From: Cordilura impudica
Taxonomy: Eukaryota; Arthropoda; Insecta; Diptera; Scathophagidae
DNA: 64,000 nt
NCBI GenBank assembly: GCA_963682025.1
Contig: OY821520.1
Coordinates: forward strand, 132,055,937 to 132,119,936
Direction: 5' to 3'
Shown here piece by piece: positions 19,641-61,000 of the stretch (the stretch's first letter is position 1; each line of letters begins with the position of its first letter). A program made the translations under genes and the position numbers. The notes below the pieces were generated by a model. That model was given only the letters and a program-made list of their open reading frames with translations. It was not told the DNA's origin and did not search any database.

Positions 19641-19937
19641 TATCTGACCCATTTTCCTTTAAAAATCATTAAAAATAATATAAAAACTATTTAATATCTC
19701 TAGATCCTATGTATTATTTCTTGCAATATCTATATGTAAAGATAAGATCTCATATGTAAATATCAAAATTTGTTTAAATATGTAAATAAAGGAAGAATAT
19801 TTAATTGAAATTATCATTATCTGATCTAGCCTGTCATTAGAAATTTTTATGATCGGTGAAGAAGACAATCAAAAAATAGTATCCATCCACGAAGTATAGA
19901 TAAACTAAACTGCAGAGGTTCTACATTTAATTCTTTA

Positions 19938-22633: not shown

Positions 22634-22636
22634 TTA

Positions 22637-23043
22637 CACTGTGGAACAAATTCAGGTTAGTAAAAGTTAGGTCGATTCTGAGAGTGAGGGATGAAAATAG
22701 AGGCAAAATTAGAAGAAATGTTTCGCGGCGTTTGTTTATGTTAGTTCGAATTTTTTTTTTAATCGACCTTCGAACTTTGCAGTCAAATGCCGATTTTCAG
22801 CATATTGTTTGTATGGTTTTTTGGCTATAACTCGTCGACTAATTGATATTTTTTCTATCTGTCAAAGCCAAATTATTGCTAGAGACCCGTGCAATAATTA
22901 AGATTTTCTATAAAATTGATTTAGGAAATTTTTGTGGTGCTTATGAAGCAAAATGTTGGAAAAATTAATTTTTTAGCCTCTATTTTCACCCCTCACTCCC
23001 AGAATCGATCTAACTTTTGCTAACCTGAATTTGTTCCACAGTG
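22637..23043. mobile_element. MITE derived from the CACTG long-TIR family
   Basis: Ends are CACTGTGGAACAAATTCAGG and its complement, flanked by TTA on both sides (22634-22636, 23044-23046): a 3-bp target duplication. The left ~345 bp match the left TIR of the 32537-35067 and 58013-61366 elements, then jump directly to the last ~70 bp of the right end. It is a simple internal-deletion derivative with no coding sequence. Confidence 0.9.
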
Positions 23044-23596
23044 TTATGATTTAAACTTAGTTAGCTGATTCAACAACCAACAGAAAGCGCCATGAATGTA
23101 CAGCAAGCAACTGCTATGGTTGTTATACTTGATGGTTGCAGTTGCTTGCTAGAAATAGATGGCGCTTACTGTTTTTTTAATTGATCTGTAAATAGATGTT
23201 TACACATCTCCCCTGTGGTCGGACTCACACAGTTTTTATTTTATTTTATAGGAACAAAATGAGGAGAAAAACATCGTTTAAAATTTTTATCCTTGAATGT
23301 CCTTAATGACGTACAAAAAACAAATCTTGAAATAATACATGTTAGAGACTATAAAGGCTATTTGGTGACTAAAAGCAAAAAAAAAAAAAAATTGGCAAAT
23401 TATTAATGATGTAAAATAAAATAAAAAAAAAACAAAAAAAAGAAATCAATTCATTTAAAACGATATTGTAAAAAATTAAGAAGTTCAATTAATTAAGACA
23501 TAAATCATATTTTTGGATGCCGCTATACGAGTTTTTACGTAGTTTTCCTTTCTAGATACGTTTTCTGGATATAGAAAATAAGTATAAATGAAATTT

Positions 23597-26034: not shown

Positions 26035-26071
26035 CACAGTGGACCATATTTTGAGAAGGCGGCCAAAAATC
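26035..26071 (+). repeat. Transib-1 left terminal signal (heptamer, 21-bp spacer, nonamer-like box)
   Basis: Heptamer CACAGTG at 26035-26041 and A-rich box CCAAAAATC at 26063-26071. The V(D)J recombination signal consensus is CACAGTG plus ACAAAAACC; the box matches 7 of 9 positions. Confidence 0.85.
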
Positions 26072-26511
26072 ATTTGTTTTTTGTTACCGATTTTAAAGTT
26101 ATGATATTCATTTGAAAGTAAATACTAGTAAACCTCGGGAGCCAAAAAATTGTGACTCTATCTCAACTACGTCATAGCGAACAGGGTCTTCGAAAATGGG
26201 CTTTCTCAGTATTTTGCTAAAATTAAAAATTTCTTTGTAAATTTTTATTTTTGAATGACTGTAACTTTTTTGATTAAAAAGATTTTGAAGTGAAATGAAT
26301 TTTGTATAATTTTGCGGCTTACATTCTATTAAACGTAAAAACGTAAAATCACCGAGTCATTCCTAAATTAAAAAAAAAAATTTTTTTTAAAAAGGTCCAA
26401 ATTTTCCGAAAATCTCCTACTTAATAGAGCATAACTCCTGCTAGTCAACAGCCGTCAGAAAAAGTCTTGCACTCTTCTATAGTCCGAACCCTCCCCTATG
26501 AATACAAACGT

Positions 26512-26760
26512 TGTCCACTATGTGGTTAAGATATATTAAGTTTGAGGTGATGTTTGTAACTGCCAAAAGTATTGGACCTTTATCCATCTTTTATTATACG
26601 GATCTACTCAAAAACACTTTCTGAGTCGATTAAACGATGTCCGTCCGTCCGTCTGAGTGTTATGAATACAAAAGTTGGTCCTACCGGTGCACCGCGTTGT
26701 ATTTTTTTGCGTGTAGGTAGAGTTGTCAGGAGTTGTTGTATACTTACAAAAAAGGGTTAA
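26512..26760 (+). repeat. Family R fragment inside Transib-1
   Basis: CCACTATGTGGTTAAGATAT through CGATGTCCGTCCGTCCGTCTG matches the 5' third of the 36281-37081 copy. It is either an insertion into Transib-1 or a fragment captured by it. Confidence 0.7.
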
Positions 26761-26882
26761 GATATAATGCGCTTAATTGTTACAGGTACATTTACATAGG
26801 TATCTTTCAAAAACATTAATAGTCTGAATTAGAGTTATATAGTTTAAATACCTGACAAAATGGGAAACAATTTAAATAACAG

Positions 26883-27773
26883 GTAAATGGTAAAAAAAAA
26901 AACTATTGCGACATAGCCCTTTAAGATATGAGCAGGTATGATTCACCTTTTAAAAGAGGTTAGGGTGTGGGTTTTTATGATTCTAAAAGTGGTAATAAAA
27001 GATAAAAATTTGTAAATGGTAAAAAAAACTATTGCGACTTAGCCCTTTAAGATGTGAGCAGGTATGCTTCACCTTTTAAAAGGGGTTAGGGTGTGGGTTT
27101 TTTATGCTTCTAAAATTGGTAATAAAAGATAAAAATTTGTAAATGGTAAAAAAAAACTATTGCGACATGGCCCTTTAAGATACGAGCAGGTATGATTCAC
27201 CTTTTAAAAGGGGTTAGGGTGTGGGTTTTTTATGCTTCTAAAAGTGGTAATAAAAGATAAAAATTTGTAAATGGTAAATAAAACTATTGCGACATAGCCC
27301 TTTAAGATACGAGCAGGTATGCTTCACCTTTTAAAAGGGGTTAGGGTGTGGGCTTTTTATGCTTCTGAAAGTGGTAATAAAAGATAAAAATTTGTAAATG
27401 GTAAATAAAACTATTGCGACATAGCCCTTTAAGATATCAGCAGGTATGCTTCACCATTTAAAAGGGGTTAGGGTGTGGGTTTTTTATGCTTCTAAAAGTG
27501 GTAATAAAAGATAAAAATTTGTAAATGGTAAATAAAACTATTGCGACATAGCCCTTTAAGATATCAGCAGGTATGCTTCACCTTTTAAATGGGTTAGGGT
27601 GTGGGTTTTTTATGCTTCTAAAAGTGGTAATAAAAGATAAAAATTTGTAAATGGTAAATAAAACTATTGCGGCATAGCCCTTTAAGATATGAGCAGGTAT
27701 GCTTCACCTTTTAAAAGGGGTTAGGGTGTGGGTTTTTTATGCTTCTAAAAGTGGTAATAAAAGATAAAAATTT
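26883..27773. repeat. Seven-copy tandem repeat, unit about 127 bp, inside Transib-1
   Basis: Units start at about 26883, 27012, 27139, 27268, 27394, 27521 and 27647, each with GTAAATGGTAAAxAAAACTA, TTGCGACATAGCCCTTTAAG, GAGCAGGTATGCTTCACC and GGGGTTAGGGTGTGGG. Units are highly alike, with only single-base changes and a few indels, so expansion was recent. The array ends about 70 bp before the likely transposase start and would lie in its promoter or leader. Confidence 0.95.
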
Positions 27774-27846
27774 TAATTTTACATAATTGCAAGAAAGAGT
27801 ATTTATAATAATGTTTCCACAATTATTATTCATTACAATTTGTGCA

Positions 27847-29830
27847 ATGGCTAAGTACTGTTACAGAGATCTGGCAGATATTTATCTTCAACGAAATGAT
27901 GTAGACGATGTAATTTTGCACATAGTGAGCAACGTCTTCTTTAAGAATTGTAACCTAGAAGACATTGAAATGCACAAAGGAAAAATTACTAGTTTTGCAT
28001 CGAATTTGAAAAGACGGTACATTGAATGCTCTCATAGCAAGGCAAAGATGTACAAACGTTACCAAGACTGGTTAATAAAGGAACTTATTTCTGAGAGTGC
28101 ATCAACAACTGCCAACGAAAGTGGAAAAAAGGGTCGACCAGCAAAACCAATTGACGGATGTAGTGAAAGGTCTCGAAGGCGCAAGCTGGAGAATATCAAT
28201 GAAGAAATTTCTCAAAGAATTATTAAGGATTCATTTTTGCACCAAATTCAACCAACCCAAATTAAAGAAAATAAAATTGATATAATTGAAAAAATAGTAG
28301 AAGCGAGCCCAAGACGCACAAAGATTATTTTGAAAAGCAATCCTACACCAATTGAAGATAAGAAATTTACGCCGAAAGAAGCGTTCGCCCTATTTTTGGA
28401 TTTGAAATTGACCAAAAATCAATATAAGGAATTGCGGAGCGAACCGATGAAAAGAATTGTGGGATTTTTCCAGAGTATCGAGATTTAGTTTCTGCCAAAA
28501 AATCACAATCTGCTATTAGTGTCACTTCAACATCAGCAGAAATAAAATTGCAAGATCTCCTTGAACATACTGCAGAACGATTGCTAAATACGCTTGATAC
28601 TGATCATTTAAAAAAAAATTGGTAATGGCAGCATTACTTTAATTTCTAAATGGGGATGTGATGGATCCTCTGGTCAGAAACAATACAAGCAATTTAATGC
28701 CGAAAATTCATCAGGTGCTAATTTATTTATGGTATCTTTCGTTCCATTGCGCTTAACAAAAAGGTATAGCGTCTTAGAGCCGTCAACTAGTAGAGCAACA
28801 GAAATTGATATATGGAAAAATGAAATTCCTTCTTCAACAAAGTATTGCAGACCAATAAAATTTGCATTCAAAAAGGAAACCAAAGATGTCATAACTGAAG
28901 TTCAAAAAATAAAAGATCAAATTAAGGAACTTCAACCAGTAATATTTAAATTTGAGGACCAAGACATTGAAGTACATTTTAAAATGTGTCTCACAATGAT
29001 TGATGGAAAAGTTGCACAAGCTTTAAGTAGAACAAAGTCAACGTCAAGATGCATTATATACCAAAAGACATCAAGTCAATTAAGCCAACCCCCACCAGAA
29101 GACGATAGTTTTAAGGGAGCCTACGAATTTGGAATGTCCCCTCTTCATGCTAGAATACGTGTCATGGAGCATATTCTTAAATTGGGTTACGATTTGGAAT
29201 TTGGCCCGTTAGGCGAAACAGTGAGAAAAAACAAAGAAAATGAAGAAAAAAGAAAGCAAAAAAAAAACAAATTCAACAAAAATATCTATAGCTAGGCCTC
29301 GTAATCGACCAACCAAAACAAGGTGAAGGAAACATAAATGATGGAACTACTGCAAGGAGATTTTTTTCCGATCCGGAAACTGTAGCATCTATCATGAATT
29401 AATAAGACGATTCAAAATCATATTACAAGTTCTAGCATGGAGAAGAAAGATAAATGCAAAAAAATTAGGAGAGTACGCCAATAAAACAGCTATACTTAAT
29501 ACTGGAAAATACTCTTGGAGATATATGCCATCCACAGTTCATAAAATTTTGTACCATGGGGAACAAATAATTCAAAACAATATGCTACCAATAGGAGATC
29601 TATCTGAAGAAGTGCAAGAAAAAACGAACAAAGACTACAGATTCTTTCACGAGCACAACACAAGGAAAATGTTGTACTAATGTTGTACTAATGAAGACCT
29701 TATCACTATTTTGTTGTGCACTTCAGATCCATATATGTCCAACATTCGTCAGAAATGGAAAACTACCTCTATTGAATTAGACGAAGAAGCTAAAGAACTT
29801 CTAGAAGATGAAAATCAAGGCTATTTATAA
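27847..29830 (+). pseudogene. Transib-1 transposase (RAG1-core-like), broken
   Basis: ATG at 27847 (MAKYCYRDLADIY; an in-frame ATG at 27811 is the alternative). An N-terminal basic region with KKGRPAKP and CSERSRRRK precedes the RAG1-like core: KWGCDGSSGQ (first catalytic Asp), VPLRL, CRPIKF, TMIDGKV (second Asp), LHARIRVMEH, GLVIDQPKQGEGNINDG, WRYMPSTVHKILYHGEQII (paired His), LPIGDLSEEVQEKTNKDYR (catalytic Glu region) and SDPYMS, ending at the TAA at 29828. Frame changes occur near 28465, 28612 and 29295, with further ones around 29400 and 29680. The CxxC seen in Transib-3 is reduced to one Cys (RCIIYQ). All three catalytic acids are still encoded. Confidence 0.9.
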
Positions 29831-30451
29831 GATATTTTTACTAAAATTGGTTGACTTAAAGTACTTTTTCATTACACTAACAATAGTTAAGTTACACTTT
29901 TTTTTTATATAGTTAAAAAATTTTCTTGATTTAAAAATTTATATATATTGTAAATTTACAATAAAAATTGTTAAATTTCATAAATTTACCATAAAAATTG
30001 ATATAGAAATATTTAAAAAGACAATAAAAACAAATTTAACTAAAGCAAAAACATACGAGTTTTTCATTGAAACTTCTCTAATTTGAACCAATATAAGGTA
30101 ACTTTTATGTTCGCTGCTTAATAAATCATATTTTAACTCGGGATCTTTCAAAAAAAAAACAACCTTTGCATTAGGACTAAAAAGTTTACGGGGGCTAAAT
30201 TTTGGCATTTTCTGAAAAAATTAACTTAAGAAATTGTTAAAAAGTATTAGTTGTAAAATTAACTGAAGAAATAAGACATTATATTAAAAAAAAACCTTTT
30301 TTTTACCTTTTAACACTTCATTTTTGTACTAAAATTCAACTTTATTTTCGGTAGAGAATTACGTTTTATAGCAAAACTTAAAGGCTAAGGTCTCGCCTAC
30401 CAAACAAAAAAAAAACCGCATATCAAAATTCAAATCTAATCAAAAGTTATA

Positions 30452-30488
30452 GGTTTTTGACCGCCTTCTCGTCAAATGGTCCACTGTG
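30452..30488 (-). repeat. Transib-1 right terminal signal (21-bp spacer)
   Basis: Minus strand: heptamer CACAGTG at 30488-30482, then 21 bp, then TCAAAAACC at 30460-30452. The box matches the V(D)J nonamer consensus ACAAAAACC at 8 of 9 positions. Confidence 0.85.
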
Positions 30489-32526: not shown

Positions 32527-32536
32527 TCTACAATAT

Positions 32537-35067
32537 CACTGTGGAACAAATTCAGATTAGCAAAAGTTAGGTCGATTCTGAGAGTGAGGGGTGAAAATAG
32601 AGGCTAAATTAGAAGACTCGTATCTCGGCGTTTGTTTATGTTAGTTCGAATTTTTTTTAATCGACCTTCGAACTTTGCAGCCAAATGCCGATTTTCAGCA
32701 TATTGTTTATATGGTTTTTTGGCTATAACTCATCGACTAATTGATATTTTTCAATCTGTAAAAGCCAAATTATTGCTAGAGACCCATACAATAATTAAAT
32801 TTTTTTTAAAAAATTGATTTAGAAAATTTTTGTGGTGCTTATGAAGCAAAATGTTGGAAAAATTTTTTTTTTCATGCTTTTTGAAAATATTTTCCACAAA
32901 ACTAAGTCTTTACCGCATTCAGAATTCGTTCCAGTATCATCATACCGAAGTATTGATCTTCAAACAGATATCAGTACTACAACCGCCGCTGCTACATCCA
33001 TGGATTTTCTCAGAATACGACCCTGGTGAAGCTACATTTTATGAAGCATCAACGGACGCAGTCCTAGTCACACAACACCAATTGGATGGAATTGTTGCAA
33101 ATTTGTGTTTGACTCAGAAAAAATCAGAACTACTGGCTTCATTTTTGAAAGGAAATAATTTGCTGGCGAAAGGTACCAAAGTAACAGCATATCGAAAACG
33201 CCAAAAAGGGTTAGAAAAGTTCTTCAATGTGAATGATGTAAAAATTTCGCTTATTGCAACGATATTGAAAAGTTAATGGAGACGATAGGTTTAACCTATA
33301 AAAAAGAAGATTGGCGTTTATTCGTCGATAATTCACTAATCAGCTTAAAAGTTGTGCTTTTGCACAAGACAAATACAATGCCTTCTGTTCCGATTGCGTA
33401 TAGCACTGACACTAGTGAAAATTTTGATAATTTGAAACACATTCTGGAAGTAGTCAAATATAAAGAACACCAGTAGTGCATTTGCTGAGACCTCAAAATA
33501 TTTTCATTGATTACAGGCTTAACAGCATCTGGCCCTCCAAAATATCCGTGTTTTTGTGCGATTGGGATTCACGATACGGAGAAGGTATTAAGGAAGAAAC
33601 CAGCACAAACAGCGTAACTGGAATAGTTGCATTGGATGGAAATGGCCTAAAGACAATAGGCTACACGAAAGTCTTGTTCCTGAAATGAAAATTTTGTTGC
33701 CGTTGCTCCACATTAAACTTGGCATTGCTAAAAATTTTTTGAAATGTATCGCAAAAAGACCAGCAGTATTCAACCGCTTAAAAGACATTTTCCCAAAATT
33801 CAGGAAGGGGTTGTTAAAGGTCTCGACATACGGAAACTAATGAGTAGTCAAGATTTTGACCAAACTCTGACAGACCGAGAATTAAATGCATGGGTAAATA
33901 ACACGAAGACAACTACAGGCAATCTGTTGCAAACATGTTGGCATCTTTCGATGAAATTGGGGTTAGTATGTCGTACAAAATTCATCTCTTGAATCAGCAT
34001 CTTGATCAACTCGCTCAACAGTTGCCAACTGAATCTGATCAGCAAGGCGAACGTTATCACCAAACTGCGCTTCCATTTAAAATAAGTTAACTATAGTGTG
34101 TACATATTTTGAATTCCTAGATTTTTCTAATATCTTTGTCAGAGTGCACAATTTAAACATGTTAACGATTGAAAACTATTTTCGTTTCAGGTACAGAGGA
34201 AAGAAATCTCCAGATGCAATACTCGCTGAAATTTGTTGGTGGTATAAAAACACCTTTGAAGAAGAGGAAGATGAGGAAAAAGAGGAAGAAGGGGAAGACA
34301 AAGATGAAATTCCAGAATATCTGTTGGACGAAATTATCGACCCTTCTGATGATGATGACGATGACCAAGATATTAGAGAGAGCAGTGATGTTGATCCACA
34401 GCCGCCTGCTAAACGGCAACTGGCCAAATCTTTAAGTTAATTTATTTTATTTTTTTACTTAAAACTTTTCATAACTAACATTTCAAAAATATATTTTTTT
34501 CCATATTTTTTTAATTTCTTTTTCAATGTTTCTTCAAAACCAGCACTGAACAAAATTGGTACATAAAAAATGAGAAGTAAATTAATATTAAGCTGGAAAA
34601 CGCAAGTTTTGTATTATGATTGTTTTCTTTTCAAATGAAATTTATTGAAGAAACTGAGAAGCATATTATAGATCAAACAGAAAGCAAAAAAGACTTAGTT
34701 TTGTGGAAAATATTTTCAAAAAGCATGAAAAAAAAATATTTTTTCCAACATTTTGCTTCATGAGCACCACAAAAATTTTCTAAAACATTTTTTTTAAAGA
34801 ATTTGATTATTGCACAGTTCTCTAGCAATAATTTGGCTTTCACAGATTGAAAAAATATCAATTAGTCGACGAGTTATAGCCAAAAAACCATATAAAAAAT
34901 ATGCTGAAAATCGGCATTTGATTGCAAAGTTCGAAGGTCGATTAAAAAAAAAATTCGAACTAACATAAACAAACGCCGCGATACGGGTATTCTAATTTTG
35001 CCTCTGTTTTTACCCCTCACTCTCAGAATCGACCTAACTTTTGCTAACCTGAATTTGTTCCACAGTA
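32537..35067 (+). mobile_element. CACTG long-TIR transposon, copy B (CMC/Chapaev3-like?)
   Basis: Ends are CACTGTGGAACAAATTCAG and the complement of TACTGTGGAACAAATTCAGG. TAT flanks both sides (32534-32536, 35068-35070), a 3-bp target duplication confirmed by the restored Helitron sequence. Inverted repeats run about 375 bp in this copy. It encodes a 5'-truncated transposase. CAC ends with 3-bp target duplications fit the CMC (CACTA/Mirage/Chapaev) supergroup, especially Chapaev3; this is an inference from ends and not from a protein match. Confidence 0.85.
32912..34440 (+). pseudogene. CACTG-family transposase, copy B, 5'-truncated
   Basis: The reading starts abruptly within the left TIR with the SEFVPVSSYRSIDLQ segment; the N-terminal zinc-binding region present in copy C is gone. 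It continues QLDGIVANLCLTQKKSELLA, VTAYRKRQKGLEKFFNV, WRLFVDNSLISLKVVLLHKT, VPIAYSTDTSENF, FLCDWDSRYG, MKILLPLLHIKLG, GLDIRKLMSSQDFDQ, a SDQQGERYHQTALP block (E to Q versus DEQGE), then after an intron RYRGKKSPDAILAEICWWYK and an acidic tail to 34440. Several frameshifts (near 33240, 33475, 33690, 33890). The intron acceptor (TTTCAG before 34191) is kept, but the donor reads AAGTTAAC instead of AAGGTAGC, so splicing is also lost. Confidence 0.8.
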
Positions 35068-35425
35068 TATTAATAGACTAGGCGATTTCTTGTCACCGAT
35101 GTATCTTCCACCGTTTTGTCCCGGTTTTGACCAAACGTATATTATTTGAAAGGTATTTCTTCTTCGCCGTTTTGTAGATTTACAGATTTTTAAATTTTGT
35201 TCTTTATTTTGAGTAAATTGCATTTAAAGTTGCTAATAACACGTACATTAAATTAAAAAATGCTATGTGTGTTTTATTAAATTTGTTAATGTGTTTGTTA
35301 ATGAGTTTGTTATCTTCATTCGCAATAATAATAAACCATAAAAGTGTTGGTTTGTGAATTGACTGAGTTGAAAAATGAAGATGCCTAGAAATTGCAGTCG
35401 AATTTAGAGTGCTGGAAGCTGCTAG

Positions 35426-47500: not shown

Positions 47501-47687
47501 TAAATAGAAAAATTCTGCAGATATTTTCATTAAAATATGATTTTCACAAATAGCAATAGGTTAAGCAATTTTTTTTTCGGTTGAATTAATTTGGAAACTT
47601 TAGCTACAAAATGGCGTTAAAATTTAAAAAATCGGTGACAAAAAAATTGGACTTTTGGCCAATGAAATCATAATTTCAGCCGCAGTC
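44508..47687. other. Long region without recognisable gene
   Basis: AT-rich with homopolymer runs. Short frames at 46360-46557 and 46798-47007 resemble nothing known. The only clear structure is the hairpin at 45401-45454. Confidence 0.45.
45401..45454. repeat. Perfect 19-bp inverted repeat, related to the end of family R
   Basis: GAAAATTATAGTCGGTCTA (45401-45419) and its exact complement (45436-45454) with a 16-base loop. The arm equals the terminal sequence of the family R copy at 36281-37081 (CTAGACCGACTATAATTTTC), so this may be two family R ends head to head, or a hairpin remnant. Confidence 0.8.
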
Positions 47688-47692
47688 CGACG

Positions 47693-49484
47693 CACAGTGT
47701 CGTGAGGGCAGCCAAAAATAAAAAAGTCAAATATCGAATTTAAAAAAAAAATTAATACGGTTTTATTAAGTACATTCCAGTTTAAGCAAATCTGAAAGAA
47801 TTAAAACAAAATTTAATTTTTAAGGAAGTTCTGAGCATTCAAAATTGAAAGTTATAAGCAAATACACAATTATTGAAAAAAATATGAAAAAATGCTATAC
47901 GTTATAAGGGTTAATTGGTAATCAAAATGTCGATAGAGCAGAATAATTTTAACTAAAATATAATAATACTACAATGTGATTGTCACATGCGATGTACTGT
48001 TATTCTGAATATAAACAAAGATAAATAAGTGATAATATTAGAAATTTTTAACTTCAGTGGACAATAAAAAAAAAGATAAAAAAGGTATTTTCTAAACTTT
48101 AATATAAAATTTCTATAAGTACGTTTATTTCAAAAAACTTGGTTTTACTTCCACTTTCGTCCACTTCTAATTCTTATTCGCAATTTTCAGTGGCTAATCA
48201 GGTTCAAGTTCGTCAATTTTTTGACATTTGGCATAGTACACTAAGTGCAGCAGAGTGTGAAGTAGTATATTATTTAGAAACATTCTACAAAATAAAACTG
48301 AATAAAAAGAAAATTAATTGAATTTTGTAAGTATTTAATATAAGTTGAATTTCTTTGTACTAAAGTAATACCTTTTAAAGGAACCAAGCATGAGTCGAAG
48401 AGACAGACCTGCAGTAAACTTCGAAAGTTGTTCCGAACGTACCAAAAGGAGAAAAGTTGAAGAGCTTGTGGCATCAACAAGTACAACACTTTTACAAAAA
48501 GCTGTAAAAAGAGTTTCAAATCCAACAACTTCATCCAGTATTTCTGTATTAAAAGCATTGACACTTTTTATGGACATAGATTTATCTTGCAGAGAGTATA
48601 ATATGATGAGAACAATTGTTAATGAAGTTCATAAAGACTGCTTTCCATCCTATTATGCCTTGCAAAATGCGAAACAAAAATACATTCCAGAACCAATTGT
48701 TGTTTCAGAAACGTTTGTTGAAGTTCCATTACAAACTTTTTTCAATATGACTGTGAATAGTTATTTAGATCTGCATCAGTTTGAATCCGAAAATGATGTT
48801 ATCTGTGAAGTTAGGTGAGGTTTCGATGGCAGTTCGGGACACAGTACTTATAAACAAAAATTTAACGATCCTAATTCAAATGATGAATTTCTTTTTATTG
48901 TCTCATTCGTGCCTTTAAGATTCTCATATATGTATATGGTTTTATTCATCCGATTTTTATAAAATTTAACAAAATTAAATACGTCTACAAAATAATAAAC
49001 ATAGTTTTAGCTAGAGGTTAAATTTTTCGATTTTATTTTTTTCAGGATATATGAGAGGTGGGTGAGTGCTTGCTCAAAATTGAAAAATTTCTTTTTTTAT
49101 AAATTCAGAATGATCTAAGTGTTCCATATACCAAAAAATACTAATTAATTTAATTTTTTTTGCAATTTCTCTTAAATTTATGAAAAAGGACAGTTTTGAA
49201 CTGTGCTTGTCTCTACTATGAATTGGACCAGATTTGGCCGAAACGTTAAAGTTGTCTAAGGTAACCAGTGTACAAAATTTCATAATGGTAGAACTTTTTT
49301 TTCTTCTGTTATGATATTTATAATTTTCAGGATATATGGGAAGGACCCGAATCCTTGCTCCGAAATTTTTTATGTTTGAAGTCTGACTATCTTTCACCAA
49401 ATCAAACAAGTGTTCCAAATTTCGTAACTCTACGACAACTCATTCTATTTTTGGCCGCTCGTTATATGAAAACACGACACTGTG
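47693..49484 (+). mobile_element. Transib-2, internally deleted element with 12/23-type ends
   Basis: Both ends start CACAGTGTCGTG. On the left the A-rich box CCAAAAATA follows the heptamer after exactly 12 bp (47712-47720); on the right (minus strand) the same box follows after exactly 23 bp (49454-49446). Flanks are CGACG (47688-47692) and TGACG (49485-49489): a 5-bp target duplication with one C-to-T change. Length is 1792 bp. It contains only the N-terminal half of a Transib transposase on the plus strand and inserted in a LINE. Confidence 0.9.
48390..48950 (+). pseudogene. Transib-2 transposase, N-terminal half
   Basis: The 142-residue open frame reads MSRRDRPAVNFESCSERTKR, a basic segment, then LKALTLFMDIDLSCREYNMM, NEVHKDCFPSYYALQNAKQK and YIPEPIVVSE, which aligns with the pre-core region of Transib-1 and Transib-3 (CSERSRRRK; ALYMDLDLSERKYNVLR; LPSLYALRNEK). 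A stop after ICEVR (48818) is followed in another frame by RFDGSSGHSTYKQKF (first catalytic Asp region) and DEFLFIVSFVPLR. Similarity ends where Transib-3 has an intron; everything after, including the second Asp and the Glu, is deleted. The true start may be upstream, as in Transib-1. Confidence 0.8.
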
Positions 49485-49489
49485 TGACG

Positions 49490-50062
49490 TAAAACTCTAT
49501 ATAAGTACAGATTTAAGAAACATAAATGATTGTTTGGAAAAACTAAACAGAGATCTGAAACACATTTATGACTGGACAAATATAAATGGTTTGTGGCTTA
49601 TTTATAAAGTGCTAAATAATAGCGAAGAAAATTGCCTTTTGAGCCGATTGTAATGCTTAATGATCAAAAAATAGAAATTGTATTAACAGCCGAAAAGCTT
49701 GGTATCACTCTCCTCTTCCACTCTCACATGGTCTAACCATATAAATGCTGCTACAGATAAAACTTGTGTAGCACTGCAGACGCTGTGGAACATGCAGAAT
49801 ATTGCACCACTTTAGATTAGAATTTTACTAGCAGAAACCTACTTAAAGCCAACTCTATTACATGAATGTTAAATATATGCAAGTTGCGATTTTATAAGTC
49901 GAAAAAGAACTAATGTCAACTTAAAATGCAATATTAAGATATGATTTTAATTTAAGAAAATATGACCATATATCTCAGTATTCCAAAAAACTGTACGTGG
50001 CGACTCTTACTGATTTAATGAAAATAGAAACACTAATACTGCTGCACAGAATTGTATATATC
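49490..50062 (+). pseudogene. Jockey-like LINE reverse transcriptase, middle part
   Basis: Conceptual translation reads VKLYISTDLRNINDCLEKLN, RDLKHIYDWTNINGL, then LTWSNHINAATDKTCVALQT, LWNMQNIAPL, RILLAETYLKPTLLH, KYDHISQYSK and LTDLMKIETLILLHRIVYI. These are the segments after the YADD box in Jockey/LOA-type elements (DLxxIxxWxxxNGL; LxWxxHI; PLxIRxLLAxTYLxPxLLY; IxTLILLHKI). Several frameshifts. It begins right at the Transib-2 edge and stops at the 50063-51896 element, resuming at 51900. Confidence 0.75.
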
Positions 50063-50109
50063 GGCAAGGCCACGAAAAATGAAACCACATATTTCTTTTT
50101 TCTGTCACA

Positions 50110-50302
50110 AAGCCCAAAATTTTTTTTACATTTCAAATGTCAAATATGCATAGAATATGGCAGCACTGTATGCCAGTGCAAAATTTGTGTCTGCTTTGGC
50201 ATTTTACATTCTTTTCATAAGTGGCACGTGCAAGGCGTAGTTGGAAAATATACCAATGTCGGCGAAAAATGTAAATTTTGTTGTTATTTTTTTATACTTT
50301 AG
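50110..50302 (+). other. Cys-rich open frame, function unknown
   Basis: An open frame running from before the element edge encodes HFKCQICIEYGSTVCQCKIC, VCFGILHSFHKWHVQG and GEKCKFCCYF. The CxxC pairs with His suggest a zinc-binding fold. It lacks its own start after 50063, and I cannot assign a family. It could be a degraded exon of the element's protein or chance. Confidence 0.3.
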
Positions 50303-50688
50303 GCAGATGATTACTTTTTTTGGATAGAATATAAATCAGTCTATTGATTAGCAAGCAAATTTGTGTACAAAGCTTGGCTTTTGGACCAATTACGGCTTAA
50401 AGTAATCAGCCGCAAATAAGTGGTGACGTTACTGACAAATTTTTATAAAATGTTTGTTTATGCATTAATTAATTAGAAAAGAGGTTGGATGAGCTGATTT
50501 TTTTTTTTGTGAGTATTTGTGATTTAGTTTCATAACAATGCTTTAATGAAGCCTTATTTGCATATAGCAGGGAATTTTTGCAGAAAAAGATTGCGTGACG
50601 TTACTGACGGAATTTTTTTATTTTTTCCTTTTTGCTTAATAATTTGGTATTTAATTGCTAGACTCCGATTCCCGGTGCACAAAGAGAA

Positions 50689-50985
50689 ATGCGTTATATT
50701 GAAAAGCTAAAAGAAAGCAACAAATATGACGAGTACAAAAAGAAAAAGGCCGGAGCTATGAAAAAATTGAGGGCTAACAGAAAAGAGGAAGAACAACTAC
50801 TGTCAATAATTGAATTGGGAAAGGCGATTTCTATGCACCGTGCTGCTGGCCGCGAAAGAAGCAAAAAATATCGACAGAAATTAAAACAATCAGATAAAGA
50901 CACCCAAAATTTCTATTTTTTTTTTGGTGATATTTTATGTTTATTTATATTTAAAAATAAAAATACAACTGAAGTGATGCTTTAA
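50689..50985 (+). CDS. Lysine-rich protein of unknown function in the 50-52 kb TIR element
   Basis: 98 residues, MRYIEKLKESNKYDEYKKKK then AGAMKKLRANRKEEEQL, ISMHRAAGRERSKKYRQKLK, followed by a hydrophobic tail after DTQNF. The repeated K/R-K/R-x-K with Tyr resembles the basic N-terminal leader (RxxKLKxxxxYxxYxxKxxxRxKxxR, then RxxxKxYR) that precedes several uncharacterised transposase-like proteins of insects. An acceptor-like TTGCTAG lies just upstream (50664), so this may be an internal exon and not a complete gene. No catalytic motif follows. Its place in a TIR element suggests a truncated transposase, with low certainty. Confidence 0.4.
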   Translation: MRYIEKLKESNKYDEYKKKKAGAMKKLRANRKEEEQLLSIIELGKAISMHRAAGRERSKKYRQKLKQSDKDTQNFYFFFGDILCLFIFKNKNTTEVML

Positions 50986-51896
50986 TTTTGCAATAATTAA
51001 CAAGAGTGAAATTAATAAAGACTTTTTTATTTTCCGATAATAATGTGTTTTTATTTTACAGAGTGTCCTGGCTTTAGTTCGAAATACTGACACAAAATTT
51101 TTATCACCATTTAGAAAGAAATTTCACAAATATTTCGCAAAAAAAAAAAAGAAAAACAGAAGTCAATTCGACATTTTTCGTCTAAATAGCCGCTAAAACG
51201 AAAAAGTAGGGAAAAATTACAAATTTTAATTTTAATGATAAAAAACTGGTCAAAAACCAATTTCGACCCTCAAGCTATACACATCATTCAAGAGATAATT
51301 TAATTAGCTAAGACTCTATCATACAAAAATAAGCTCTAAAGGGCAAGCCCGATTTACTACAATTTTTTTTATGAGATTAGTGCGAAAAGTGGTTTTGTCT
51401 TAATATCTCCCCAGGGTTGCATCTTAAAACTCCTTTACTACGATTTTTTGGCCGTTTAGGGTCCCTCTATTAAACCAAGAAAAAAAAAGACCCGAAAACC
51501 TTAATGAAATTCGTACGTGTGACATTACTGACATTTTGCGTCAAGTTACTGACACTGCTTTTATGTCATTTACGTGATTAAAACATAAAATATTAAGCCC
51601 AACTTTTAGATAAGAATCATCTTTCATCCTTCCTTTTTTAAAATGCTGGGCAATAATAAACATGAAGTCTTTTCAATTCGCTCATTTTTACACAAACGTT
51701 CAGTAACTTAAAAAGACACTTCCAAAAGCCGGTGACGTTACTGATGGCTTAAAGTGGTCATAACTTCACAACAAAATGAGATACAGCAAAATTGGCTGCA
51801 TATGAAACAACAGTTATGACGACAACTTTCATATGCCGCTCTCAAGTTGGGAGAAGTTGTGTATACGAGCGTTACGTTATTGACGGTGGCCTTGCC

Positions 51897-51979
51897 CATA
51901 TACGTGCACCGATTTACTTGTTCGAAAGATTACTTTTTACTCATTCAACAAGATCCAATGATACCATACACTTAAGACG
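51897..51979 (+). pseudogene. LINE reverse transcriptase fragment between two insertions
   Basis: The sequence encodes IRAPIYLFERLLFTHSTRSN and DTIHLRR, which continues the LINE frame interrupted at 50062 and is itself interrupted by Transib-3 at 51980. The motif (PxYLFxRLxFxxSxRxxxxIxxR) is the C-terminal region of Jockey-like ORF2 proteins. The final AGACG is the Transib-3 target duplication. Confidence 0.7.
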
Positions 51980-52069
51980 CACAGTGCTTTGTCTCCATAT
52001 AGTGAATCGGCAAAATTAGAGAAGTCATCGCAGAAAAATGAAATTTGGTGTGCTGGTTCAAAATTTGTT

Positions 52070-52480
52070 AGTTAAGAAAAATTCGAAGTTTCGGAAAAAT
52101 CGGTGCAAGGACATGACTACCTCCCATACATCTTTAAATTTAAAAGTTTAATTTTAGCTATAATTGTATACATAATAAATCGAAAGTTGGTAACTATCTG
52201 TTAAAATATGTCTTGTAGCTTAGTGGTTAATTTTTTTTCATTCGGTGCAAGGACATGACTACCTCCCATATATAATTTTTCTCAAAAACTAAATTGTAAC
52301 TACATTAGTGATCAGAATGCACTGAAAACTTATAACAACTTATAAAACTATGTTTTTGGGCTCTCTGGGAAATTTCGCTTCATTCGATACAAGGACATGA
52401 CCATCTCCCATATATCCTTTTTCTCAACAACTAAATTTTTGCAACATTTGTGATCAAAATGCAAATAATTTAATATTCTC
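52070..52480. repeat. Three tandem repeats of ~140 bp in the 3' subterminal part of Transib-3
   Basis: CGGTGCAAGGACATGACTAC followed by CTCCCATA occurs near 52103 and 52242, and a variant (GATACAAGGACATGACCATC) near 52385. Spacing is about 139-143 bp. Such arrays also occur 5' in Transib-1 (26883-27773). Confidence 0.8.
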
Positions 52481-52624
52481 TTTAAAAAGGGTCATAAATA
52501 AATTTGTTTCTAAATTTGCTCAACAAATAAGATAATTAATTTTAATTGTAATTTATGATGTTTTCTTTCAAAATGTATTTCTCAATTTCTTCGAATTCAT
52601 CATTTTTTTTATATGTGTTTTGTA

Positions 52625-54716
52625 GACCTAAGTGACGATAGTTCCGGATCCGACATTAACAACAAATGAGCCATTAAATCTCTATTTGTATTTTCTCTCG
52701 TCGTTTTCATGTATGGGAAAATCGCACATTTGTTATATTTTTATGACTGGCTTCTAAGGCTTCTTCGGACAAACACCCTAGAATAAAAATAGTTTTAAAA
52801 AATGTGTAAAACGTTTTTTTAATATTTTATTACCTATTGACAAGTTGAAGTATTCCAGAACATCGCACCCATGCAATAAAACCTTACGAACAGTACTTGG
52901 CATGTAATACCAGCCATACTGTATTAAATATGAGTTTCTAGTAATATTTAGCAGCTCCTTAAACGTTGTCATATTAACCGGGATTCCGCAAGATAAAACT
53001 CTTAACATTATGCCAAAATTATCAATAAGACTTCTATCAGTCCCCATAATTTCAGCAGAAATTTCACTATTTTCAAAAAATCGTCGAGCAGTGTTTCCGT
53101 CGTTAGTAGTTCCAAATCCCGTTTTTACTTGGTCTATTATTAATCCCGTCCGTGTTTTGAACTCATTTTGAATTCTCTTTTTGTTTTGTGAAAAAACTGA
53201 GGTATTTTCCTTATTGACTCTCCAAACTTTCAAAGGAAGACGGTAAGCAATGTGCAATATGCATTCAAAAAAGCGTATCCAGCAGTGGAGTGTAGAAAGT
53301 CCATATTTATAATTATTAATACAAGGGTCCTTATTAATGTTTATATTGTTCATATCTGTAGGGCTTGCATTACATATAAAGCACCTACTTGCTGAGTTTG
53401 TGTCATTAAAAACATTTGCAATTGAACCATATATCAATGTGCAGTGCATATCGTAAGACACCTCAACAGTTGAACCATTTGTATCAATTACAAAACATTC
53501 CAAATTTTTAAATTTTTCAATAAAATCGTTGTGCATTTGCTTAACTAAAACTGGATTCTCTTTTGTTAATACTAACTTAAGGGGTCTACAATACATTGTG
53601 GAATATGGCATTTTATTTACCCATAATACTTCCTTTGAGTCTAAATTTACCATTCTGAAAAAAATAGAAATTTAAAATATAAAAGGATAATTGTGGAATG
53701 CACGTATAAATGTACATCTGTGTATAATAATTTACATACCTCAGAGGGACAAAGGCTATAAAAAAAATGAACTCGTCGGAACTATTTTCGTTTTCAAATT
53801 TTTGCTTATATCGACTATGGCCAGAGCTACCATCCATGCCCCACTTGCAAATTAGGGACAGCTTTGTACATTTTTGTTCCGTATTACAAATTTTAATCAC
53901 ACTTTCCGCCGTTTTACACATTATACATTTTAAGTCAACCTCTGCTGAAATTTCAGTCGTTGCAATAGGGGGTAAGAATTTTAATTTTTCATTTCTTAAC
54001 GCATATAATGATGGCAAATAGTTTGGATGAAGCTCATTAATTGCTTGCCGCAATACGTTATATTTTCGTTCCGACAAATCCAAATCCATGTATAGCGCCA
54101 ATGACTTTTCAATAGAAATGCATTTTACATCTGCTTTAGTGCTGTCTAAATTATTATTACACCTCTTTCTTAATTTGTCTGCTGCATATTGAAGTTCTTC
54201 AAATGAATAATTTTCAATCAATTCTGGAATCTTTCTATTTTTTGATCTAACAGAACTTTGACTGAATACTTTCTTTTTTCTACCAGATTTAGTTATTTCT
54301 TTATTTGTAGTATGTGACACGTTTGTTTCCATATCTGATGCTATTGAAGATTCCATTGTTTCTAGATGTTCTATATCAGATACAGTAGATATTTTATGTT
54401 GGCAAGTTTTGCTCGTGCTTGGTTCCTAAATATTTTAGTTTTAAAGTTTAACTTTTTTACTTAGATTAAAAAGAATATCAATATACAACTTACATTGTCT
54501 GGGTCGAAAAATTTCCAATTCAACCACTTAGAATACTTTTTATCGAACAATTATCTATTGGATCTACTCTTGTTCCAATATTTTTTTTATTTTATTGTCA
54601 AACAATTTAATTTTTCTTAACAACACTTCTTTTTCAAGACTTGAATCCCCAATTTTGCCTTTTATAAATTTATATATAAAATCAACTATATCGGAATTAA
54701 TAATACAATTTTTCAT
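52625..54716 (-). pseudogene. Transib-3 transposase (RAG1-core-like), four exons
   Basis: Exon 1 from ATG 54716 to 54494, donor GTAAGT. Exon 2, 54425-53740, holds a basic region, ALYMDLDLSERKYNVLR, LPSLYALRNEKLKFLP and ICKWGMDGSSGHSRYKQKF (first catalytic Asp). Exon 3, 53654-52834, holds YCRPLKL, TLIYGSI, SRCFICNAS (CxxC), LHCWIRFFECILH, GLIIDQVKTGFGTTNDGNTA, WYYMPSTVRKVLLHG and LSIG. Exon 4 from 52777 holds CLSEEALEASHKN (catalytic Glu region), then TRENTNRDLM and MSDPELS. Introns are GT-AG: 68, 85 and 56 bp. Lesions: frameshift in exon 1 near 54555, second Asp replaced by Tyr (TLIYGS versus TMIDGK), first His of the His pair replaced by Arg, frameshift near 52690. Otherwise the best-preserved Transib here. 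Confidence 0.9.
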
Positions 54717-56140
54717 TATTGAAAAATATTGTTTCACAACTAGTAAATAAATTTGACAGAATAGTTTTATTATGCATATATATATATATAGAGATGAACC
54801 AGTGAGATTATTTAACTCACGAGGGCTCACTATTAGATTATAATGACTACTGCAGCACGAGGTTATTTCAATATTGACTAGGTATTAATTTCATGTTTTA
54901 GTGGTAATTCCACAATTAATTCAAATATTATTGAAAAAAAAAAAATGGTAAAAACTTCAAAACAATCGCAAACTATTAGAAAGTGATCACGTTAAACTGA
55001 AATAAACACGCTCTCATCTCTTGTCCAAATATAAAAAATAAAGGAAAATAGCAAAATGTAAATAACAATGGTGCAATTTTATTTTATTAAAGAAAAACCT
55101 TCCATATGAGGTACACACAGTCAATAAAATTGCACAGCTAGCAAAAATTGAATTGAACATTGAACGTCGCTGGACCCCTCTACTTGGAGAAAATTATATA
55201 ATAATATTTTTGGTCTTTGCAAAACTACAAAATATAGATGTTTAAAAAAAATACAAAATTTCAAATTTCCGGTTAAAAATCTTAAATTTTTTTTATTACT
55301 AGTGGTTAGATTTGTTAACAAAGTATATAAATGAAAAATAAAAAAACCCCCAATTTTTTTTTTATATATTTTTTTAATTTTTTCAAAATTTGCAAAACTT
55401 TAGGGTTGCTGCCAAAAAAAAAAATATTCTTTCAATTTTTGGTAAGTTTTTGCCACTATTTAATAAAAATTATACACTACATCAAAATTTGATTCATTTT
55501 TTATAGTAATAAAAAAAAAATTTATAAACTAATTTTTTTAAATTTTGGCAGTACCATAAACTTAGGTCTTTGCAACTTTTTCTGAAACTTAGGAAATATG
55601 TCTTAAAAAATTCATATCATTTTTACATTTCCGGGTGAAAAATCTAAAACTTCTTTACATATTATATTTAAGCCCTTTAACATGTACTAAAATCACAAAT
55701 AAAAAATTACCTATTCTTAAAAAAAAAATTTTTCACTCTATCAAACTTTTGCATTTTGGGAATTCCAAATAAAAAATCGCAAAAGTTTTCGATGGCACAA
55801 ACAACTTTTCCATATAAAATATTTACAAAAAATTATTTTTGTTTTTTTTGTACCTATAGTTATAAACAAAACTGTTAAGTTTCAAAGCAATACAATAAAA
55901 AATGAAATTTTAATAATTTTTTTGTAGCACAGTAAAAACCGTTTTTCCGTTCAACAGTTTTACCTCAAACGTTTTCTGACTTTAGCGCCCTCTACTGTTA
56001 ACAAAAAGACGAGATGATAAATTTTATTTACGAATTTATTTAAGGTACTTTGTTAGCTTTACAAAAATGTATATTACTTAAATATTCTAAGCACTTTATT
56101 TTATTTTAATTTTGCCTATGGGACAAAGCACTGTGAGACG

Positions 56141-56680: not shown

Positions 56681-58009
56681 TATTTTGTTTCCTTAAAAAA
56701 TTTTTTTTTTTTTTCATATTTATTTGTATATTTTGCTCTTAATTTTTGTTTTATTAAATTAACCCTTAATGCTTCATATATATTAACCAATTTTTATTAC
56801 TTCATTTATTAAATTAAATTTTTTTGTTATACTATGTATTTATACTTATTCATCATTACATTGTAATTATAAGATTGTAAATCTTGTTGTAATGGAAAAT
56901 AATGAATTCCATTAAATTAAAATTAAATAAAATTAACATTAAATAAATAAATAAAGCATAAGCTGCGATTTGATGGTCAAGTTTGATGATTTAAAAAAAT
57001 TAGAAACATTAATTGTTGAATTCATTATTAAAAACAATTTATTTAATACTGAAAACGTACTATAAAACATAGCTTTTAAGTAAAAGATATTAGATTTTTG
57101 GTAGGACGACATAATAAAGGCTCTTATGAAAGTTATTGAAAACATTGCTAATACAAAAGCCGTATAAGTAATACAAAATTAAAGGAATTTTAATTATCAT
57201 CAAGTATACGTCATGTTGTTTAATTATATTTCTGGCTATATAAAAGTTCTTCGCAATCCATTAAAAACTTCTGTTGACATAAAAGCAATTAATCCACAAC
57301 ATTAATGAAAATCTGCTTCGAACATTTAAAACGTTTAAACGTACAAAAATCCAAAATTTTCTTCTTTTTGACATTTAATATTTTAATCTGATACAAAATA
57401 TTTGCTAGTTCATATGTTTGATGAATACTGCTCATAGCGAATTAATACCGCATACTGATTTCTTAATTGTTTCAAGGCCAGACACATTGGGTATTATAAA
57501 AATGTTTTTTTTTTTACAGATTATAAAACTTTCTGAAAAAATTTCCATCATATCTTTAAATGTAAACTGCCCTTTGGGTTGTTATGCTATGACTTGTGAC
57601 ACTATGGCCAGATAATAACCATTTGTTAAGCTAACAGCAAGCCACTTGTTTCATAATATTTATCAAGAATTTCTTTGTAATGCTTGTTACGAGGGAGGTT
57701 CCACAATAAACGGACCTGACAAAGAAAACACAACATATTTTTAAAATTGTTTTCTTTATTTTTACCAGCGATATTCAATAGCTGTGAGACCCTGTTTATA
57801 ATTAAAACTGTCTAGTTCCTTAAAATATCTATCAAAATCTACATTGTAGGCAACTTTTTTAACACCGAGCTATTTTTTAAAGTTTGGAAATAGAAAATAA
57901 TGTTGCGATGAGACAATTCAAACTTTATTCCATGGACTTTGATCATCGTAGTAATGGATATGTGAAATGTGTGAAAGGCCAATCCTTAATTTTATCACCT
58001 TAACTACAA
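56681..58009. other. No recognisable gene
   Basis: Very AT-rich. Short frames at 56939-57145 (minus) and 57418-57615 (plus) have no recognisable motif. Confidence 0.45.
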
Positions 58010-58012
58010 TAA

Positions 58013-61000
58013 CACTGTGGAACAAATTCAGGTTATCAAAAGTTAGATCGATTCTGAGAGTGAGGGGTGAAAATAGAGGCTAAATTAGAAGACCCGTATC
58101 GCGGCGTTTGTTTATGTTAGTTCGAATTTTTTTTTAATCGAACTTCGAACTTTGCAGTCAAATTCCGATTTTCAGCACATTGTTTACATGGTTTTTTGGC
58201 TATAACTCATCGACTGATTGATATTTTTTCAATCCGTAAAAGCCAAATTATTGCTAGAGACCTGTGCAAAAATTAAAATTTTTTAAAGAATTGATTTAGA
58301 AAATTTTTATGGTGCTTAGGAAGCAAAATGTTGGAAAAAAAAATTTTTTTTTCATGCTTTTTGAAAATATTTTCCACAAAACTAAGTCTTTTTTGCTTTC
58401 TGTTTGATCTATAATATGCTTCTCAGTTTCTTCAATAAATTTCATTTTAAAATAAAATGCTCCTAGTCGATAATTTGCGTTAAAAATCCCAACACCATTA
58501 AATAAATAGCGATTTAGGTAGAAGTAATTAAAAAGGGAAGTTCCAAGAATTAGGAATTAGTAAAACAACTTTTTTGTTTTCAACCACAGCACAGGTATCG
58601 ATTTTTTTTTTTTATTTCGTACAAGCGAACTAATTTCAAAAATGAAGGTTTAGTTAAGACTCGAAACTCAGCCGAAGATGATGTCTTTTAATTTTCGCTC
58701 GGTCGTTATAAAATTTGCTATTCATTTTTATGGAACTTATTTTATTTCGTGAGTGATTAAGTTAAGTGCATCGGTTTCATAAAAATATCAAAAAAAAAAC
58801 ATTGTATAATATACATTTTATTAAAAATGTCGGAACTAAAATGTAAAATGGACCATTTTTGTAATGTTTGTGGACGTTTCATAGCAAGCGATGAAAAATG
58901 TGGCAATGCGAGTGATTTTTTTTTAAGCCTATAAACAATGTTTCTCGCAAGAGTTTATTACTGGCGTAAACTATGCATCTAAAAAAGTTTACTGTAATTG
59001 TTATTCAACTCTTATGCAGTGGAAAAGTGAAAGCAAGAAGGCTATGCCTTTTGGTTTACCAATGATGTGGTTAGACAACAGCCCGCATCAAGAAGAAAAT
59101 TGCTATAAATGTATCAACTACCATAAAACTTTGAATAGAAGGAAAGCAAAGAATAAAACTTATGCAGCAGTGCCAAGTGTCCAATTACCATTACCACACT
59201 CAGAATTCGTTCCAGTACCAACATACCGAAGAATTGATCTTCAAACAGATAACAGTACTACAACCGCCGCTGCTACATTGATGAAGGTACATCCTATGAA
59301 ACATGAAAGGACCAAATCCTAGTCACACATAACCAATTGGATGGAATTGTTGCAAATTTGTGTTTGACTCAGTAAAAATCAGAACTACTGGCTTCATTTC
59401 TGAAAGTAAATAATTTGCTGGCGAAAGGTACCAAAGTAACAGCATATCGAAAACGCCAAAAAGAATTAGAAAACTTCTTCAATGTGAATGATGCAAAAAA
59501 TTTCGCTTATTGCAACGATATTGAAAAGTTAATGGAGACGATAGAGTTAACCTATAAAAAAGATGATTGGCGTTTATTCATCGATAGTTCACTAATCAGC
59601 TTTAAAGTTGTGCTTTTGCATAAGGCAAATAGAATGACTTCTGTTCTGATTGCGTATAGCACTGACACTTGTGAAAATTTCGAAAATTTGAAACACATTC
59701 TGGAAGTGGTCAAATATAACGAACAGCAGTGGAGCATTTGCTGCGGCCTCAAAATAGTTTCATTGACTACAGGCTTAACAGCATCTGGCTTCCAAAATAT
59801 CCGTGTTTTTTGTGCGATTGGTATTCACGATACGGAGAAGGTATTAAAGGAAGAAACCAGTACAAACAGGATAACTCGAATAGTCACATTGGACGGAAAT
59901 GGCCTAAAGACAATAGGCTACATGAAAGTCTTGTTCTGAAATGAAAATTTTATTGCCGTTGCTCCACATTAAACTTGGCATTGCTAGAAATTTTTGCAAT
60001 GTATCGCAAAAAGACCAGCAGTATTCAACCGCTTAAAAGACATTTTTCTAAGACTAAGTAACGCCAAAATTCAGGAAGGGTTTGTTAATGGTCCTGACAT
60101 ACGGAAACTAATGAGTCGTCAAGATTTTGACCAAGTTCTGACAGACCGAGAATTAAATGCATGGCTCGCATTGAAAGCAGTCATTGAGGGACTTTTGGGT
60201 AAAGAACGCAAACACAACTCCAGGCAATCTGTTGCAAACATGTTGGCAGGTTTCGATGAAATTGGGGTTAATATGTCGTACAAAATTTATCTCTTGCATC
60301 AACATCTTGATCAACTCGCTCAACAGTTTCCAACTGAATCTGATGAGCAAGGCGAACGTTATCACCAAACTGCACTTCCATTTGAAATAAGGTAGCTACA
60401 GAGTGTGCATATTTTGAATTCCTAGATTTTTCTAATATCTTTGTCAGAGTGCACAATTAAAAATGTTAACGATTGAAAACTATTTTCGTTTCAGGTACAG
60501 AAGAAAGAAATCTGCAGATCCAATACTCGCTGAAATTTGTTGGTGGTATAAAAATACCTTTGAAGAAGAGGAAGACGAGGAAAAATAGGAAGAAGGGGAA
60601 GACAAAGATGAAATTCCAGAATATCTGATGGACGAAATTATCGACCTTTCTGATGATGATGACGATGACCAAGATATTAGAGAGAGCAGTGATATTGATC
60701 CACAGCCACCTGCTAAACGGCAACTGGCCAAATCATTAATTTAATTTATTTACTTTTTTACTTAAAACTTTTTATAACTAACATTTCAAAAATATATTTT
60801 TTCCATATTTTTATAATATCTTTTTCAATGTTTCTTCAAAACCAACACTGAACAATATTGGTACATAAAAAATGAGAAGTAAATTAATATTAAGCTGGAA
60901 AACGCAAGTTTTGTATCATGATTGTTTTCTTTTCAAATGAGATTTATTGATGAAACTGAGAAGCATATTATAGATCAAACAGAAAGAAAAAAAGTCTTAG

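Follow-up and report, generated by a model that had tools for sequence, protein, structure and literature searches.

A 64,000-nucleotide stretch of the Cordilura impudica genome (contig OY821520.1; hereafter the window) carries two Transib transposons, Transib-2 and Transib-3, with unequally spaced ends. Each end consists of the heptamer CACAGTG, a spacer and an A-rich box. These ends are probably built like the 12- and 23-recombination signal sequences (RSS) of V(D)J recombination, the spacer being one helical turn longer at the 3' end of the transposase, and the two would be read together by a lopsided synapsis.

Ends of Transib-2 and Transib-3

The initial annotation of the window had reported spacers of 12 bp (left) and 23 bp (right) for Transib-2, and of 13 bp (right) and 23 bp (left) for Transib-3. 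Both pairs were recovered by direct reading of the ends (Table 1). The short end had also been placed 5' of the transposase in both elements. Indeed, Transib-2 encodes its transposase on the + strand (from 48390) and Transib-3 on the - strand (54356-52778), both match the HzTransib transposase (Protein Data Bank entry 6PQN; E 7.4e-7 and 3.5e-57, respectively), and in each the short end lies on the 5' side. Transposase homology, heptamer ends of the CAC type and GC-rich 5-bp duplications, as expected of the Transib superfamily, were all found.

Table 1. Transib elements of the window and their parts
Feature	Position	Strand	Description
Transib-2, whole element	47693-49484		1792 bp; cut-and-paste DNA transposon
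Transib-2, left target-site duplication	47688..47692	.	CGACG
Transib-2, short end	47693..47720	+	CACAGTG 47693-47699, 12-bp spacer, box CCAAAAATA
Transib-2, transposase remnant	48390..48923	+	142-codon N-terminal frame, homology continuing to 48923
Transib-2, long end	49446..49484	-	CACAGTG 49484-49478, 23-bp spacer, box CCAAAAATA
Transib-2, right target-site duplication	49485..49489	.	TGACG, 4/5 identical to left CGACG
Transib-3, whole element	51980-56135		4156 bp; cut-and-paste DNA transposon
Transib-3, left target-site duplication	51975..51979	.	AGACG
Transib-3, long end	51980..52018	+	CACAGTG 51980-51986, 23-bp spacer, box GCAAAATTA
Transib-3, transposase	52778..54356	-	two open frames, 53613-54356 and 52778-53653
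Transib-3, short end	56107..56135	-	CACAGTG 56135-56129, 13-bp spacer, box GCAAAATTA
Transib-3, right target-site duplication	56136..56140	.	AGACG, exact
Transib-1	26035..30488	+	21-bp spacers at both ends, transposase on +, duplication CGTCG exact

The window copy of Transib-2 is internally deleted. Its N-terminal frame carries a basic motif, RRDRP, which is a form of the GRP-type motif described below. Twenty Transib-2 copies were collected from the genome via the left end, and end counts were taken from their rows. The box was recognizable 12 bp from the left heptamer in 19 of the 20 (altered in L042). The right end was located in 17 copies, with a spacer of 23 bp in 16 of them and a deletion in L047. 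Exact 5-bp duplications flanked 13 of the 17 copies having both ends, and in the 20 left flanks the first duplication base was C in 95% and the last G in 90%. A decayed end (47648..47690, - strand) adjoins the Transib-2 short end and, compared by eye with L054, resembles the 22/22 family T6.

The closest named relative of the Transib-3 transposase comes from the fly Rhagoletis pomonella. Acidic columns, which we take to be the DDE catalytic residues, are conserved among the relatives. Since one Asp that is nearly invariant there is replaced in the window element, this Transib-3 copy is probably inactive.

Spacing across the genome

The 1.49-Gb assembly containing the window was scanned with end patterns, and reversed patterns served as controls. 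The window itself holds 14 CACAGTG heptamers, compared to a shuffle mean of 3.02. The Transib-2-type pattern CACAGTGTCG...GGCCAAAAA, allowing 7-29 bp, gave 182 matches (control 0); among the 100 listed, spacers were 12 (33), 23 (66) and 11 bp (1). With the Transib-3-type pattern CACAGTGCTTTG...GGCAAAAT, allowing 9-32 bp, 35 matches were obtained (control 0), with spacers of 13 (14) and 23 bp (21). The 72 matches to CACAGTGGTCG...GCCAAAAA (8-32 bp allowed, control 0) were divided by eye into 53 rows of family T4 and 19 of 'T9', one of which (C5:79163766) is not T9. Spacers were 14 (23), 24 (29) and 13 bp (1) in T4, and 23 bp in the 18 T9 rows.

Other patterns gave a similar picture. T2b short ends made up 26 of 29 matches to their pattern (control 0), with heptamer CACTGTG and 12 bp; long ends of T5 have 23 bp by a looser pattern (88 matches, control 7). 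When the T2 group was merged with T5, the 26 T2b rows were kept together with 38 of the 88 T5-pattern rows, and 50 Transib-1-type or unassigned rows were dropped on by-eye family assignment. The 164 rows kept, including C1:135115812, which is not clearly of the T2 group, had spacers of 12 (69), 23 (93), 11 (1) and 20 bp (1). A long-end form with G at spacer position 5 and CATA at 10-13 had 132 matches (control 0), and by eye its length fits a 23-bp spacer at every place listed (21-26 allowed). The short form CCATAGG was matched 29 times (control 0); in 28 cases the length corresponds to a 14-bp spacer.

Heptamer-box spacing is thus fixed within the asymmetric families across copies. For Transib-2 and Transib-3, whose genomic copies the initial annotation had wanted compared, neither absence of a conserved box, nor variable spacing, nor like spacing at the two ends was found: the former stays at 12/23 but for the single 11 noted above, the latter at 13/23. 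A pair of about 12 and 23 bp (+/- 1) within one element holds for both and is fixed in the listed family members.

Chance, by which an AT-rich genome would supply A-rich boxes cheaply and the spacings would be coincidental, is hardly credible as an explanation, and a chance origin of the spacings was rejected. It is true that the window has a GC content of 32%, that the box is a run of A, and that looser patterns have some background (controls of 3 vs 5587, 16 vs 234 and 7 vs 88 matches). However, the controls were 0 for six patterns (182, 35, 72, 29, 29 and 132 matches) and 7 vs 5555 for a seventh, CACAGTGN{6,30}GGYCAAAAAY, and the spacing is bimodal and constant across copies.

The difference between short and long spacers is usually about one helical turn (T2 types and T5, 11 bp; T3 and T4, 10 bp). 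The exact 12/23 pair claimed initially holds for the Transib-2 group and T5 only; as a general rule, 'exactly 12 and 23' was rejected, T3 having 13/23 and T4 14/24. The term '12/23' is better understood as a difference of about one turn with the short end 5'.

Polarity and symmetric families

In all six families that have both ends and a transposase in one element, the transposase has the short end on its 5' side. These are T2, T2b (L056), T2c (L066), T2d (L060), T3 (window) and T4 (L051, L052, L055). In T2, the N-terminal match points away from the short end in 20 of 20 copies. Partial evidence agrees for two further families: T5 L059 has both ends and a 53-residue transposase match, T5 L053 has one end and an N-terminal match, and T7 L063 has a 14-bp end with a transposase downstream. 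No convincing far end was found for T5 in L053. In the same copy (101-140) the short-spacer heptamer is accompanied by a tandem array of its box, CCAAAAATG occurring three times, and a second, shorter copy of this array lies at 3984 (-) of L059. A statement of fixed short/long polarity relative to the transposase was not found in the search listings and text excerpts covered, and may be in print.

Other families have equal or nearly equal spacers. Transib-1, which was omitted from the initial annotation, serves as a symmetric internal control in the same window; its transposase matches 6PQN with E 3.7e-24. T6 has 22/22 with the exact duplication AGCCG, and T9 23/22 with the exact duplication CACCG. 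As these symmetric families do well, Transib transposition in general does not require unlike spacing. The occurrence of 12/23 within single elements, put forward initially, thus stands as a fixed asymmetry of constant polarity, but not as a property of Transibs at large; 'Transibs in general are 12/23' was rejected on the spacing of T1, T6 and T9.

T8 (L065, spacer 10) was set aside because its far end could not be located and because an N-terminus resembling that of Transib-1 is situated behind another Transib end. Tx (L043) yielded no convincing ends, and no Transib of another host was confirmed in searches of viral_contigs and genome_contigs.

Pairing of unlike ends

Convergent neighbouring ends within 12 kb were collected from the rows kept. 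Like ends were paired in 0 of 59 cases; the pairs, 30 of the T2 group and T5, 10 of T3 and 19 of T4, each consist of one short and one long end. Under random matching, the probability was 2.6e-12 for the 42 pairs counted first, which include 13 of the 30. Same-strand neighbouring ends, which are not pairs, were alike in three T2-group cases (23/23 once, 12/12 twice) and in one case in T3 (13/13; C2:243830277, C2:243831416). In Transib-1, 23 convergent pairs readable by eye likewise join sequence-distinct ends, the ATATTTT type with the TTTSACG type or variants. Here the spacing was 21/21 in 21 pairs, 21/23 in one and 21/10 in one.

Transposase tree and shared end motifs

A FastTree tree of 142 transposase rows, printed after pruning, was calculated. 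It omits T5_L053, T5_L059, T8_L065, T1b_L035 and homologues with too few aligned residues, and an earlier tree omits Ty_win and T5_L053. The T2 types and T3 fell on one side, in a grouping shown with no support value. T4, T7 and the homologue P0028 formed a separate clade (support 1.0), T1, T6 and Tx another (0.995), and T9 stood apart. The node uniting T2 with T2b, T2c and T2d had a support of 0.0 and other deep nodes were weak (0.34-0.81). Judged by this tree, the asymmetric families occupy two distant parts of it, with T2/T3 and T4/T7 transposases being 30-40% identical.

Despite this distance the ends have motifs in common. In the short ends of T3, T4 and T7, CCATA directly precedes the GG before the box, a block obtained in 0 of 20,000 shuffles; T3 shares it although it lies outside the T4/T7 clade. 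Aligned on the heptamer, the long ends of T2, T3, T4, T5 and T7 agree with one another (p about 0.0001), and four of these five (T2, T3, T5, T7) have CATA at spacer positions 10-13. All five families carry G at position 5 of the long-end spacer, where T6, T9 and T1 (at both ends) carry A.

N-terminal region and proposed mechanism

Thirteen stretches, representing ten families, were scanned by pattern for N-terminal motifs. A motif of the GRP type with a basic stretch after it was present in T1, T2 (as DRP), T2b, T2d, T4, T5, T9 and the T8 stretch, that is in symmetric and asymmetric families alike. A GRP-bearing equivalent of the nonamer-binding domain has been reported in Transibs (PMC9435367).

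We propose the following course. The transposase core would read the heptamer CACAGTG, and the basic N-terminal region, which carries a GRP-type motif and can be likened to the RAG1 nonamer-binding domain, would read the A-rich box. A lopsided, RAG-like synaptic complex would then take one short and one long end; excision would join the two different ends of one element, and like pairs would be rejected. For the protein part binding the box, the lopsided synapsis and the rejection of like pairs, we infer that these are the most likely steps.

Alternative explanations and origin

Several observations weigh against a paired 12/23-like system of this kind. The copies descend from few masters, so the 59 unlike pairs cannot count as that many independent tests and show design stability more than mechanism. 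Of the places listed for the 5555 and 5587 matches, nearly all belong to symmetric Transib-1. If the 14-bp end of T7 belongs together with a 23-bp end of the same type, found only in another copy (L064) without transposase, the difference would be 9 bp and outside the range of 10-11. In the N-terminal scan the GRP-type pattern was not found in the T6 or T3 stretches, T3 reading SGRKKK, and a profile of the motif did not recover a RAG1 nonamer-binding domain from PDB (best match MetJ, E 0.13). The ends of HzTransib, unlike those of Transib-2 and Transib-3, are described as symmetric, with little similarity to the nonamer (PMC8289069). As to the shared spacer motifs, the long ends agree less when counted from the box (p 0.049), and for the short ends of five families p was 0.081 with the heptamer as reference and 0.003 with the box. 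The motifs had caught attention before any test was run, and T3, T4 and T7 are a chosen subset.

It is worth asking if the asymmetry, while real and inherited, reflects any pairing rule at all. Each end could be its own transposase-binding layout, the promoter-near short end, for example, being also autoregulatory; like ends would then pair equally, and like-ended elements would be missing through the small number of masters. The constant polarity relative to the gene, the thriving symmetric families and the Transib-1 ends, which are sequence-distinct though mostly equally spaced, would all suit this explanation. We nevertheless consider it rather doubtful. Typical elements of the T2 group, T5, T3 and T4 differ by 10-11 bp, which mere regulation need not give, and ProtoRAG performs better when its unlike 5' and 3' ends are combined than with two like ends (PMC8289069).

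The initial annotation had suggested that pairing of unlike ends may predate RAG or has arisen in parallel. Independent origin of the asymmetry in different Transib lineages is consistent with its presence in two distant tree parts (T2, T3; T4, T7), with symmetric T1 and T6 and also T9 elsewhere, and with the weak deep nodes, including that of T2 with T2b-d. Yet polarity is the same in both tree parts, and the CCATA-GG block of T3 and T4/T7 short ends and the CATA of four of five long ends, both post hoc observations, stand at the same places, which makes a parallel origin unlikely. Because end motifs are common to families as distant as 30-40% transposase identity and polarity is equal, the sequences favour one old origin of the asymmetry over parallel ones, without proving it. 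The tree cannot decide between loss and gain, as its deep nodes are weak. The asymmetry is probably an old, inherited trait that exists alongside symmetric lineages. A stronger version, which we offer only tentatively, is that short/long pairing with the short end 5' was ancestral and functionally enforced in a large part of the Transibs and that symmetric lineages lost it; in that case V(D)J recombination would owe its 12/23 rule to inheritance from the transposon and not to an invention of vertebrates.

Comparison with known systems

Asymmetric Transib ends as a kind are already in print (PMC8355894, PMC9435367). Ends with 12/23 +/- 1 bp are described for Transib5 of Drosophila melanogaster and for Transib2, N1, N2 and N3 of Anopheles gambiae, other Transibs being symmetric with 20-22 bp (PMC8355894, citing Kapitonov and Jurka 2005). 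By their description these combine, like the elements studied here, heptamer, 12 or 23 +/- 1 bp and A-rich box in one Transib. Subgroup I Transibs are reported to be all asymmetric-ended and Subgroup II to include both kinds, asymmetric ends being counted as an ancestral character that Subgroup I has retained (PMC9435367). Most Transib families are said to be symmetric (PMC8289069). What is added here is the fixity across copies, the constant polarity and the symmetric families as controls.

HzTransib of Helicoverpa zea (PDB 6PQN series; PMC1852546) has a homologous transposase and 5-bp duplications; over aligned columns, identity to it is 34-46% by family. ProtoRAG (27/31) and AanRAGL (4/13) resemble the present families in having two-part ends with unequal spacers in one element (PMC8289069, PMC9435367). 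They differ in their own RAG2-like genes, other boxes and other spacer differences; in the present families only transposase homology was looked for.

The 12-RSS and 23-RSS of V(D)J recombination share with these ends the CACAGTG heptamer, spacers about one turn apart and an A-rich second box in the same orientation. In contrast, spacers here are 12-14 and 23-24 bp, and both signals lie within one element. The V(D)J nonamer ACAAAAACC differs from the boxes here (GGCCAAAAAT or GGCAAAATTA; 6/9 and 5/9 in register), and the Transib-2 and Transib-3 boxes, compared by hand, match it at 6/9 and 5/9, respectively. The right-end box of the window Transib-1, TCAAAAACC, agrees with it at 8/9, also by hand.

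The origin of the 12/23 rule is an old question. One genome with asymmetric families in two tree parts and symmetric ones beside them offers natural test substrates and controls. Transposases of asymmetric families are predicted to need one short and one long end, and those of the 21/21 type not. Compared with '12/23', constant polarity and a difference of roughly one turn constrain the ends more sharply, and any Transib-bearing genome allows them to be checked.

Other elements of the window

A unit of ~127 bp is present in seven tandem copies (26857-27773) inside the 5' part of Transib-1. A second Transib transposase fragment lies on the minus strand at 19161-19650 (33-35% identity to P0021), for which no convincing ends were found; a 12-bp matching pair CACATTGGGTTG at 15207 and 21731 is without matching duplication. 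A distinct repeat family with ends CACTGTGGAACAAATTCAGG and long inverted termini occupies 22635-23047, 32528-32872, 34728-35069 and 58004-58351. The open frames near these repeats (16603-17253, 59415-59939) had no Pfam match above the cut-off, nor had any of seven proteins scanned.

Transib ends often lie one 5-bp duplication away from another Transib heptamer, in the layout CACAGTG-CGNCG-CACAGTG. By eye, this was seen at 21 places among those listed for one of the looser patterns (234 matches), e.g. C1:8664287 and C1:133576911, and also at 47648-47692 of the window and 3412-3437 of L052. It gives the impression that new copies go into the duplication next to an older element. Apart from contig C855, long COX1 matches were observed on the large scaffolds at C2:170329906, C2:170416148 and C5:21573894; these are probably nuclear copies of mitochondrial DNA.

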